A DNA stretch of 64,000 bases. Source: Bifidobacterium catenulatum DSM 16992 = JCM 1194 = LMG 11043 (GTDB taxonomy: Bacteria; Actinomycetota; Actinomycetes; Actinomycetales; Bifidobacteriaceae). The stretch is from the NCBI RefSeq assembly GCF_001025195.1, contig NZ_AP012325.1:372001-436000 (forward strand), read 5' to 3'. Shown in pieces: positions 42,274 through 46,001 of this stretch; position 1 is the first letter of the stretch, and every line of letters starts with the position of its first letter. The position numbers and the translations under genes are program-made. The notes beneath the pieces are model-generated. The model did not search any database. It had not been told where the DNA came from and saw only the letters and a list, made by a program, of their open reading frames with translations.

Positions 42274-43182
42274 GTGAGATTACGTATCGACTTGGCATAT
42301 GACGGCACCGATTTTTACGGATGGGCGAAACAGCCTGACATGCGCACCGTGCAGGGGGAAATCGAACGTGTGCTGCATACCATTCTGCGCGTGCCGGAAG
42401 GCGACGACAATGAGCCGCTGCGCCTGACCGTCGCAGGTCGTACTGATACCGGCGTGCACGCGTCGCACCAAGTTTGCCATCTCGACATCAATGAGGAGAC
42501 GCTTGCACGTTGCGTCGGGCATATGCAGGTCGAACCGGTGATGGCGTTGACGCGACGACTGCAACGCATGCTGCCGAACGATATCGCCATTCATTCCATC
42601 AAAGAGGCTCCTGAAGGATTCGACGCACGCTTCTCCGCGTTGGAACGCACTTACGTATATCGCATTGCCGACCGATCAAGCGAAATCGATCCACGTACCA
42701 GAAATAGCGTGCTGCATATAGACGATAATCTTGACATCGCCGTCATGAACAAGGCTGCTGAAATGACAATCGGTCTGCATGATTTCGGCTCGTTCGCAAC
42801 TCCCAATCCAGGAGGAACCACCATACGCGAGGTCAAAACCGCGTATTGGAGGCGCATACCGCAGCATCCGCTTATCGACGACGGAACCACCATGGGGGAG
42901 CGGTACCGAACGCCCGCCTTGGAGTCGGGACTGCTCTGCTTCACCATCGTCGCCGACGCTTTCGCACGCAATATGGTGCGTTCGTTGGTTAACGGTTGCG
43001 TACAGGTTGGTATTGGCAAACGTTCCTTGGATTGGTTCGCCGGAAAAATGGCGACGCCGTTGCGTGAAGGCAGCACTGGCCCGATCGCTCCGCAAGGATT
43101 GACGCTCGAACATATCGAATATCCGGAAGACGACCAGTTGGCGATTCGTGCCGAAGCGATTCGTGCGAAACGTACTTTGTAA
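42274..43182 (+). CDS. truA: tRNA pseudouridine38-40 synthase TruA
   Basis: 302 aa. Modifies U38-40 in the tRNA anticodon stem. RIDLAYDGTDFYGWAKQP and the catalytic-Asp motif VAGRTDTGVHA are canonical, with a C-terminal FARNMVRSLVNGCVQVG. I chose GTG 42274, which gives the family N-terminus; ATG 42262 is also in frame and would add four residues. Neither has a clear ribosome-binding site. It sits after rplQ as in many bacteria. Confidence 0.93.
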   Translation: MRLRIDLAYDGTDFYGWAKQPDMRTVQGEIERVLHTILRVPEGDDNEPLRLTVAGRTDTGVHASHQVCHLDINEETLARCVGHMQVEPVMALTRRLQRMLPNDIAIHSIKEAPEGFDARFSALERTYVYRIADRSSEIDPRTRNSVLHIDDNLDIAVMNKAAEMTIGLHDFGSFATPNPGGTTIREVKTAYWRRIPQHPLIDDGTTMGERYRTPALESGLLCFTIVADAFARNMVRSLVNGCVQVGIGKRSLDWFAGKMATPLREGSTGPIAPQGLTLEHIEYPEDDQLAIRAEAIRAKRTL

Positions 43183-43201
43183 GAGCACATACTGTACAGT
43201 T

Positions 43202-43395
43202 GCACGCAAACTGGCGACGGAACTGGTGAACCGCCGGGAGTCGATCAACCGCGAGTTGAGCCGTAATGGTGTGCGTTTCGGTATTTGATTATGCGGGCAA
43301 AAGACATCGTGTGGGCGTGGTCTACCGTCGCTTGTCGGACGAATATCTCGATCCGTTCGCATTCAATCCGGATTCCGTAATCGGTGTGCCGCCAT
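43202..43395 (+). pseudogene. Fragments of a circularly permuted ATP-grasp gene
   Basis: Two separate coding remnants in different frames. At 43202-43288, TELVNRRESINRELSRNG then VRFGI resembles the N-terminal helix of circularly permuted ATP-grasp type-2 proteins. At 43311-43393, VVYRRLSDEYLDPFAFNPD then SVIGVP resembles a core motif that normally lies hundreds of residues later. A stop and an internal deletion separate them. In other bacteria this family is encoded with an alpha-E protein and a transglutaminase, and a transglutaminase remnant follows directly. Confidence 0.65.
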
Positions 43396-43650
43396 GTTGG
43401 TCTCACCGCGCGTTATATCGCCGGATTGTTGGGTGGAGAGGGTGCCACGCACGCTTGGGTGGAGGTGTATCATGACGAGCGTTGGATTGGGCTTGTTCCG
43501 ACACACAACCGTATGGTCGACGACAACTACATCACCATCGCGCACGGCCGTGATTACCGTGACTGCATGCTCGACATTGGTATTTTCTCCGGTTGCAATG
43601 TGCAACAGCATCAGTGGGTGAACGCTTCCGTGCACGAACAGGAGCTGTAG
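43384..43650 (+). pseudogene. C-terminal remnant of a transglutaminase-like protein
   Basis: About 88 codons resembling the core and tail of bacterial transglutaminase-like proteins: VCRHVGLTARYIAGLL with the catalytic-Cys position, ATHAWVEVYHDERWIGL with the His, then VPTHNRMVDDNYI where the family has Asp-Pro-Thr, and the HGRDYRDCMLDIGIFSG motif. The first two thirds of a normal gene are missing and the catalytic Asp is replaced by Val. The frame begins inside the ATP-grasp remnant, so a deletion fused the two ends. Confidence 0.7.
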
Positions 43651-43655
43651 GCAAT

Positions 43656-43686
43656 AAAAAACCGAAGCGCCGTTGCTCCGGTTTTT
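43656..43686. terminator. Terminator between the remnant and tRNA-Ser(CGA)
   Basis: AAAAACCG and CGGTTTTT flank a 14-nt loop with extra partial pairing. It has A and T ends on both sides, so it can serve the convergent tRNA on the minus strand. Confidence 0.75.
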
Positions 43687-43693
43687 CTACTTG

Positions 43694-43779
43694 CGGATAA
43701 GGCGAGATTCGAACTCGCGGAGGGGTTTGCCCTCACACGCTTTCGAGGCGTGCTCCTTAGACCGCTCGGACACTTATCC
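43694..43779 (-). tRNA. tRNA-Ser (anticodon CGA)
   Basis: Class II tRNA. Acceptor GGATAAG pairs with CTTATCC, the anticodon loop CTCGAAA gives CGA (reads UCG), the variable arm is long (GTGAGGGCAAACCCCTC region) and the T-arm reads AGTTCGAATCT. CCA is not fully encoded. Confidence 0.95.
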
Positions 43780-43986
43780 ATTGCGCCGCTTGAAAACAAG
43801 CAACTTGATTATTTTGCCACAGCTTTGTCGATTGTCAAATCCAGCTATGAGATTTTTGCGATGTCCGCGATTGTTCGGCGTGTCTTATCTGCATGGATGA
43901 TGCGTCGCGTTGTCAGGCTCGCGGTTGCGCAGGTATCGCGTAGGTTGTTGTATGAACTGGCATGTGCTGGCGTGTGTTGGTGTGCG

Positions 43987-44871
43987 CTATTCGAACAATG
44001 CTTCGTCGAATGATGGATAGCCCCAAGTGAGAGCCAGGTCCACACGGTCGGCGATCATGCTGGTAAGTATGCCCAGAGACTGTTGCCTTGAATCATCTGA
44101 AGAGTTTTCTGCGGTCGTGCGGGATTGCGCCGAGTCGCTTGTCGAATTCGAACTTGATTCGACGGCTGCGATTTCGCTGCGTGCGCAATTCATTTCAATG
44201 ACGGCGTCGGTCGGTGCGAACAATCCAGTTGCGGAATCCACAATAGTATCGGGATGGGCGAGCAATTGCGCGACATCATAGGTTTTCGCACGGGTATCTT
44301 CAGCTCCAGAGAAGGAAATCAGCCGCTGCGAAGTTGTTTTATGACGATCGCTGATATCGAGCGTCGCATGTCCGATGGAACGTGCCGCGAAAACCTCCAT
44401 TGCGAATCCGGCCTGATCTTCCGCAACGGACATGGCGGAAAGCGAATCCGCGTCAATATCAAACGAATCGATGCCGTCGCAACGTGACAGCGTGGGCTGT
44501 GCGATGTTGATCGTAAGTCGCGCCGCCATCAAACGGGCGGTGTGACGGGCCTGCGCGCTACGCAACGTGCCGTCGGCGAACCGTGCAGGGCAGTAGGCCG
44601 CGGTGTTTGCCCAATCTGAAACCGCTTCCTGCGCGGCAAGATAGCGCATAATGATATGGCGTGACCTGTCTGCCATGATGTCGGCGTTGGCGGTCGCGTC
44701 GGCATACGCCTTCTCGCAAGGACTTGGCTGCATTTCAGCCTCGGCGCGGCCCGCGATTCGGGGTGCGGAGCAAGCAGTCAGAGACGCTACAAGCACGCCT
44801 ATGCATGCCAAGACGCAGACGCGTCTTGAGGTCGACGAGACCGAGGGGAAAAGAGGGGAACGTGTCTGCAT
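43987..44871 (-). CDS. Putative lipoprotein of unknown function
   Basis: 294 aa. A signal peptide with lipobox LTAC predicts lipid attachment at Cys34, so it is exported and membrane-anchored. The mature part is Ala/Asp/Ser-rich and helical, with four further Cys at about 52, 94, 154 and 228 that could form disulphides outside the cell. A Ser/Thr-rich stretch near 235-265 precedes the C-terminal ILTSMIADRVDLALTWGYPSFDE. No family is recognised. It is divergent from nusA. Confidence 0.75.
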   Translation of the reverse strand: MQTRSPLFPSVSSTSRRVCVLACIGVLVASLTACSAPRIAGRAEAEMQPSPCEKAYADATANADIMADRSRHIIMRYLAAQEAVSDWANTAAYCPARFADGTLRSAQARHTARLMAARLTINIAQPTLSRCDGIDSFDIDADSLSAMSVAEDQAGFAMEVFAARSIGHATLDISDRHKTTSQRLISFSGAEDTRAKTYDVAQLLAHPDTIVDSATGLFAPTDAVIEMNCARSEIAAVESSSNSTSDSAQSRTTAENSSDDSRQQSLGILTSMIADRVDLALTWGYPSFDEALFE

Positions 44872-44948
44872 GAAACATTAGACTAATAGTTGACTGTGAC
44901 CATTGGGCCGAGCGCTCGGAATAACTTCATATAGGAGGTCTTGGAAGT

Positions 44949-46001
44949 ATGGAACTGGACCTGGCAGGAATGCACCAGCTCGCAGCTGGGCAGGGAATCG
45001 ATCCCGAGACGCTGGATGCCGCACTCTCGGAAGCATTACGACTGGCATATCTGAAAACGCCGCACGCGGCGAAGCATGCTCGTGTGGAGCTTGATCCGCG
45101 TGCCGGAAGCTTTACCGTTTGGGCTCAGGATGAGATTCCGGTCGAACCGACCGAGGATAATCCGCACCCTGCGCCGACTTTGGGCGAGGAATACGATGAC
45201 ACTCCGCGTGACTTTGGCCGCTTGGCCGCAGCCACCGCACGTCAGGTCATCAGCCAGCTGTTCCGCAAGGCCGAGGACGACAAGGTGTTCGGCGCGTTCT
45301 CAGGGCAGAAAGGCAAGCTGATCACCGGTATCGTGCAGCAGGACGTGAAGGACACCTCCAATGTGCACGTGGCCGTTGGCGATGTCGAGGCGTTGCTTCC
45401 CCGTCGTGAGCAGGTGCCGGGAGAACGCTACCGCCACGGTGAGCGCATCCGCGTATATGTGGTGAATGTTGCACGCGGTCTCAAGGGCCCGGAAATCGTA
45501 GTGTCCCGCTCCCATCCGGAGCTTGTTCGCCGCCTGTTCGAGCGTGAGGTTCCGGAACTGGTTTCCGGCGCCGTGTCGATTATGGCCATTGCGCGTGAGG
45601 CCGGTGCCCGCACCAAGATCGCGGTGCGAGCCAACACCGAAGGCGTTAATCCGAAGGGTGCCCTGATCGGTCCCGGCGGCGCTCGCGTGCGTGCGGTGAT
45701 GGAGAATCTCGGACCGGAAAAGATCGATATCGTCGACTGGTCTGCCGATCCGGCGAAGTTCGTCGCCGCGGCGCTGTCTCCGGCGGTCGCCACCGGTGTG
45801 CAGGTGATCAGCGAGAAGAACCAGACCGCAATCGCCTTCATCCATGATGATCAGCTGTCTCTTGCCATCGGCAAGGAAGGCCAGAACGCACGCTTGGCCG
45901 CCAAGCTGACCGGTTGGAAGATTGGTATCGAATCCGCCGAGGCACACGCCAAGAAGATGGCAGAAGCGCAGGCTTCGACCAGTGAGGAAACTGCCGAATA
46001 A
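44949..46001 (+). CDS. nusA: Transcription termination/antitermination factor NusA
   Basis: 350 aa. The N-terminal RNA-polymerase-binding part (1-120) is followed by an S1 domain and two KH domains: GEKI-type regions ERYRHGERIRVYVVNV, VREAGARTKIAVRAN-like and VSEKNQTAIAFIHDDQLSLAIGKEGQNARLAAKLTGW are seen in sequence. It is a short form without the C-terminal acidic repeats. AGGAGGT lies 7-14 nt before ATG 44949. Confidence 0.97.
   Translation: MELDLAGMHQLAAGQGIDPETLDAALSEALRLAYLKTPHAAKHARVELDPRAGSFTVWAQDEIPVEPTEDNPHPAPTLGEEYDDTPRDFGRLAAATARQVISQLFRKAEDDKVFGAFSGQKGKLITGIVQQDVKDTSNVHVAVGDVEALLPRREQVPGERYRHGERIRVYVVNVARGLKGPEIVVSRSHPELVRRLFEREVPELVSGAVSIMAIAREAGARTKIAVRANTEGVNPKGALIGPGGARVRAVMENLGPEKIDIVDWSADPAKFVAAALSPAVATGVQVISEKNQTAIAFIHDDQLSLAIGKEGQNARLAAKLTGWKIGIESAEAHAKKMAEAQASTSEETAE

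Follow-up and report, generated by a model that had tools for sequence, protein, structure and literature searches.

Between truA and tRNA-Ser(CGA) in the genome of Bifidobacterium catenulatum studied here (G000) lie about 450 bases of remnant sequence (positions 43201-43650 of the window, the whole 64,000-nucleotide stretch of DNA that was analysed), with three readable pieces in different frames (Table 1). The left neighbour, truA, has a match in all 112 genomes of the genus. A first-pass annotation made from the sequence alone had proposed a decayed ATP-grasp/transglutaminase operon at 43202-43650, in pieces of differing frame spanning about 450 bp. The coordinates are right to within a base, and the identification is borne out by Pfam matches and by the presence of the operon at this place in relatives.

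Table 1. Features of the truA-tRNA-Ser(CGA) region, in window coordinates
Feature	Position	Strand	Basis or detail
truA, intact left neighbour	42277..43182	+	stop TAA 43180-43182
Junction D0	43201..43205	+	TGCAC overlap; alignment to G040 and junction sequences
Piece A, codons 6-33 of the CP-ATP-grasp/alpha-E gene	43202..43285	+	DNA alignment to G040
Junction D1	43285..43286	+	2 bp overlap (TT); alignment coordinates and junction sequences
Piece B, ATP-grasp piece	43287..43391	+	PF04174 and DNA alignment to G040
Piece C, 3' end of the transglutaminase-like gene (last 88 codons, stop)	43384..43650	+	PF01841 and alignment
Junction D2	43386..43391	+	GTGCCG, 6 bp at both ends in G040
tRNA-Ser(CGA), intact right neighbour	43693..43779	-	ARAGORN; Rfam tRNA match 43694-43779

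The two ATP-grasp pieces were recognized by different means. Piece A translates as ARKLATELVNRRESINRELSRNGVRFGI and is terminated by a TGA (43286-43288) created at junction D1. It has no Pfam match at E<=10 and was identified by DNA alignment only, with 91% identity over 43201-43286 to the start of the intact gene in G040, the nearest operon-bearing relative. Piece B (DYAGKRHRVGVVYRRLSDEYLDPFAFNPDSVIGVP) is 95% identical to G040 in DNA over 43285-43391 and covers positions 189-223 of the 332 in the CP_ATPgrasp_1 profile (PF04174; frame 43266-43475, E 1.8e-11, 44.1 bits against a cut-off of 23.1), so that the domain is present in the remnant as a partial match. Downstream, the open reading frame of piece C likewise gives a partial match to a transglutaminase-like core (PF01841, Transglut_core; E 1.2e-7, 32.4 bits against a cut-off of 23, profile positions 64-104 of 108), as the first-pass annotation had read it. 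Transglutaminases use a Cys-His-Asp triad. Only His is retained in the remnant; the part with the catalytic Cys was removed by deletion D2, and Asp is replaced by Val. A search of NCBIfam with the three pieces returned zero matches at E<=10; this collection is uninformative for the intact genes of G040 too, which give a single weak match far below its cut-off. A second Transglut_core match in the genome (G000:C1:1631150) lies in a 919-aa frame that may be tgm, a gene of the PFNA cluster reported from bifidobacteria (PMC8430577).

The intact operon and its probable ancestral place

A search for PF04174 in 112 genomes of the genus gave matches in 63, of which 58 have the whole profile free of internal stops. 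The other five are G000, G060 (which we take to be B. pseudocatenulatum), G019 (B. catenulatum subsp. kashiwanohense JCM 15439, classed in the same species as G000), G006 (presumably B. angulatum) and G007, where the match is below the Pfam cut-off and lies ~0.49 Mb from truA, and was not counted as a remnant. A DNA search with window positions 43183-43692 also found 63 of the 112 genomes; G037 and G101 were among these, and G006 and G007 were not. In 54 of the 58 full-profile genomes the operon is within the fetched truA neighbourhood, and in the remaining four (G038, G048, G049 and G062) it lies elsewhere. Both genes align as uninterrupted single frames in 56/58, and in 58/58 the transglutaminase has its Cys, His and Asp motifs.

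The closest known systems include other bifidobacterial operons, for example those of G040 (L133), B. moukalabense (L053) and B. ruminantium (L079). The operon of G040 consists of two genes: one frame of 726 aa, matching CP_ATPgrasp_1 (8.8e-147) and Alpha-E (2e-17), is followed by one of 266 aa, matching Bact_transglu_N and Transglut_core. It occupies the interval between truA and tRNA-Ser(CGA), as the remnant does in G000, where ~2.9 kb are deleted relative to G040 and zero complete domains are left. In both G040 and G001 (the latter presumably B. adolescentis), the operon at this place aligns with the three pieces of the remnant in their order. In G040, G001 and G027 (taken here as B. dentium), the ATP-grasp frame carries alpha-E as its C-terminal part. 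Among eight genomes searched, PF04168 was found in those three and was absent from G000, G060, G019, G037 and G006; in G000 it has no match anywhere in the genome at E<=0.001. The first-pass annotation was thus right that alpha-E is gone, but it had spoken of a lost gene; since alpha-E is fused in G040, what is missing from B. catenulatum is a domain.

In Pseudoscardovia radai (L090), which belongs to a different genus within the family, the order is rpoA, rplQ, truA, ATP-grasp frame, transglutaminase and tRNA-Ser(CGA), with the transglutaminase identified by a search match and the other frames recognized by eye from their translations. This order matches that of bifidobacteria, except that the tRNA is on the opposite strand. 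The shared gene order suggests that the interval between truA and tRNA-Ser is probably the ancestral place of the operon in the Bifidobacteriaceae.

Several genomes depart from this arrangement. In G038 (L251 3892-7163) and G062 (L252 5357-8621) the sole full ATP-grasp match is away from truA, and the operon adjoins tRNA-Ala/tRNA-Ile at this second site, perhaps reacquired by transfer. The copies away from truA in G048 (L254 6267-7063; transglutaminase split over two frames) and G049 (L253 5700-7871; one stop in the ATP-grasp/alpha-E frame) may be decaying or may carry sequencing errors. An inverted truA separates rplQ from the operon in L159-L166 (G070, G031, G020, G016, G073, G054, G052 and G053) and in others, and in G032 the operon (L193 9052-12060) is found on the opposite flank of truA, in the rplQ-truA interval. 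G059 (L175) has the operon and tRNA-Ser twice, in inverted orientation; the contamination of this genome is 8%, and the doubling is possibly an assembly artefact.

Three deletions and their probable order

Aligned to the operon of G040 (L133), the remnant corresponds to segments 2087-2172, 2770-2876 and 4920 onward, and the difference is explained by three deletions with junction overlaps of 2-6 bp. The first-pass annotation described the operon as shortened; it has indeed shrunk, but by discrete deletions. D0 joins the sequence following truA to the ATP-grasp gene at its codons 5-6, with removal of ~0.28 kb of the intergenic stretch of G040, the start codon and the first five codons. D1 removed 599 bp of the ATP-grasp gene relative to G040. 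D2, the largest, removed 2,054 bp, which comprised the rest of the ATP-grasp part, the alpha-E part and the first two thirds of the transglutaminase gene, and the frame changes at the junction. The overlap at D2 would have been longer than 6 bp in the ancestor if the ancestor differed by one base.

Comparison with relatives allows these events to be ordered. The D2 junction is identical in G000, G060 and G019. G060 has all three junctions. G019 lacks D1 and has a different deletion before D2, so that its remaining ATP-grasp piece is longer (CP_ATPgrasp_1 142-223, 2.6e-32, in a 121-aa frame of L056). In G037 the genes were lost by another route: upstream sequence is retained to near the start codon, and the alignment resumes close to the 3' end of the transglutaminase gene. 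Flanking sequence totalling 10.8 kb gives a tree of the form G037,(G040,(G019,(G000,G060))), with all four inner branches starred and supports from 100/97 to 100/100. Trees from the left or the right flank agree with it, each having one branch below the star. The deletions nest on this tree, D2 occurring once, D0 and D1 then following in the line of G000 and G060, and a separate deletion in G019. The flank tree (window 42277-45998 flanks) pairs G000 with G060, which is not classed in its species, and not with G019, which is; this pairing may reflect local recombination.

Flank divergence is 2.6-3.9% for the split from G040 and 0.8-1.3% for the split from kashiwanohense. Given that D2 is common to the three remnant genomes, these sequence comparisons place it after the former split and before the latter, and it is in this sense that the loss, which the first-pass annotation had thought fairly recent, can be called so.

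Taken with the domain matches, the comparison makes it very probable that the stretch is a dead remnant (a pseudogene) of a two-gene operon that was itself probably ancestral at this place in the Bifidobacteriaceae. The first gene would have encoded a circularly permuted ATP-grasp protein with a C-terminal alpha-E part, and the second a transglutaminase-like enzyme. The 2.05-kb deletion fused the middle of the first gene to the last third of the second, out of frame. From the flank tree, D2 would have come first and D0 and D1 later, in the line of G000 and G060. The deletions probably arose by illegitimate recombination at the 2-6 bp matches, once selection on the operon had lapsed, and the remnant most likely has no activity.

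Constraint on the remnant and alternative explanations

Changes were counted over the 267-bp C-terminal piece in the three remnants and five intact copies. Fifteen changes are private to one of the three remnants, and they fall 5, 4 and 6 on codon positions 1, 2 and 3. Pairs of intact copies give 9-5-43 (G040-G001), 9-3-37 (G040-G027), 9-6-37 (G001-G069) and 1-2-27 (G027-G051). In a Fisher test of the remnant changes against two of these pairs, p was 0.013 (G040-G001) and 0.0008 (G027-G051), the sites being taken as independent and the numbers being small. For seven of the 15 private changes, the base is also found in at least one of the five intact copies and the placing is unsure; the other eight fall 3, 4 and 1. 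Taken by themselves, G000 and G019 give a less clear pattern (2, 2 and 5). Changes common to the three remnants and absent from the five intact copies fall 1, 0 and 4, the pattern of a working gene, and may at least partly predate D2. Judged from these small numbers, the pieces look free of coding constraint.

Divergence points the same way. Between G000 and G060, the remnant differs at 11/450 positions (0.024), or at 11/366 (0.030) over 43285-43650, slightly above the synonymous divergence of five flanking genes (0.014-0.023). For G019, the value of 9/365 (0.025) is inside the synonymous range of 0.016-0.078.

One could argue that the 88-codon C-terminal piece has been retained as a small non-catalytic protein, given that its frame is open in all three remnants and that its last 23 residues are identical in G000, G060, G019 and G040. 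An open frame is unsurprising with so few changes, and the part with the catalytic Cys is absent in all three. Moreover, conserved residues have changed differently in each line: D to V in G000; R to C, I to T, P to L and D to N in G060; and A to T and I to T in G019. The Asp-to-Val replacement singled out by the first-pass annotation is real, with D in G040 and four other intact copies, but it is confined to G000 and is not a shared inactivation; G060 retains this Asp with Pro-to-Leu following it, and G019 retains LDPT with Ala-to-Thr adjoining the His. The region preceding the operon is deleted in G000/G060, a promoter scan of 42900-44000 gave a single minus-strand site, ahead of the tRNA, as compared to 0.9 in shuffles, and a partial transglutaminase piece is found among 111 truA regions in G000, G060 and G019 only. 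With a pattern of change across codon positions that differs from that of a working gene, and with the divergence described above, a kept short gene was rejected, and this reading is very improbable.

Retention of the remnant as an RNA or as a regulatory element for truA or the tRNA is even less probable. The remnant is 97-98% identical between G000 and both G060 and G019, a figure that carries little weight either way, but its divergence resembles that of flanking synonymous sites and it is absent from G037. In the 54 genomes lacking a full ATP-grasp profile, the truA-tRNA interval ranges from 46 to 3746 bases and is below 510 in 46 of them. A conserved RNA was rejected because the tRNA alone reaches its Rfam gathering score over 43100-44100, the two other matches being far below theirs. 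It is hardly credible that the pieces arrived as a fragment by gene transfer, rather than through decay of a resident operon: the operon can evidently move, as four genomes carry it away from truA and two of these have it beside tRNA-Ala/tRNA-Ile, yet the pieces are in the usual place, order and orientation, and G040 is the nearest operon bearer for both pieces and flanks. A phage origin was also rejected, with zero matches in a phage collection. Decay of the resident operon is thus the preferred explanation.

Probable repeated loss and the proposed function of the operon

Loss of the operon has probably occurred repeatedly in the genus. A quick tree was built from four proteins (rpoA, 108; rplQ, 108; truA, 113; and nusA, 84 of 113 rows) for 112 genomes and Pseudoscardovia, using 111 regions with G038 added separately; 32/110 of its inner branches are open, and it carries a long-branch warning. 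By parsimony, presence of the operon changes at least 12 times on this tree. Parsimony cannot separate gain from loss, and the changes were read as losses on the basis of the common location and of the gene order in Pseudoscardovia. So counted, there are 13 losses at the truA place, or 11 with branches under support 80 collapsed; counting presence anywhere in the genome gives 17, or 16 after the same collapsing. Presence was defined by a full ATP-grasp profile, with G048 and G049 not counted at the truA place; the genomes scored as losses include some incomplete drafts, and the simple polytomy rule may over- or undercount losses. On this rough tree, the loss in B. catenulatum is one of roughly 11-13 estimated losses at the locus. 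G006 has an independent remnant, also between truA and tRNA-Ser, in which a different deletion has cut the ATP-grasp gene down to its first 116 codons (L177 7473-7820).

It is unlikely that the operon was lost under selection and not through mere neglect. Selective loss would be read from the ~11-13 losses and from two different losses, D2 and the excision in G037, in a single small species group. If it were true, the product would be a burden in some habitats, for example by modifying a surface or signal peptide seen by the host, a phage or a competitor.

The original proposal on the operon was reportedly made by Iyer et al. in 2009. The function of the intact bifidobacterial operon is unproven, but the protein families suggest that the ATP-grasp part, with alpha-E as its partner, would form an amide bond between an amino acid and a peptide or protein, and that the transglutaminase-like enzyme would trim or exchange amide bonds. 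Such a function accords with published tagging or peptide-synthesis proposals for a related system, the Anbu operon, which comprises ATP-grasp, alpha-E, transglutaminase-like and Anbu genes (PMC6376114, PMC5666114) and has three domain families in common with the bifidobacterial operon. One difference is that ATP-grasp and alpha-E are fused in G040. In addition, the proteasome-fold family PF00227 is absent in 6/6 bifidobacterial genomes, including the operon bearers G040, G001 and G027, and was matched in 10/14 controls, which indicates that the bifidobacterial operon is an Anbu-less version. A 2017 report describes the function of the ATP-grasp/alpha-E/transglutaminase system as lacking experimental confirmation (PMC6376114). 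A second describes the same gene association and a proposed peptide-synthesis system, with operon proteins dispensable for growth without stress (PMC5666114). A third lists Burkholderia cenocepacia I35_5080-83, with DUF404/DUF407, DUF403 and transglutaminase-like proteins, among common sigma-54/NtrC targets; this is the same domain set, but in separate genes and in a distant species (PMC5491218).

A literature search found nothing on the operon or its loss in Bifidobacterium, which is weak evidence given that most subscription journals were outside its coverage; as far as found, the remnant is previously undescribed, and it is a pseudogene of known type. Such relics of operon loss are commonplace, and this one is ordinary. 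Its value is mainly that of a well-resolved example of recurrent gene loss, in which the steps can be read in order, from the intact operon of G040 through D2 to different further deletions in sister lines. Genomes that lost the operon and genomes that kept it stand side by side in one genus, and are natural partners for finding the function of the system.
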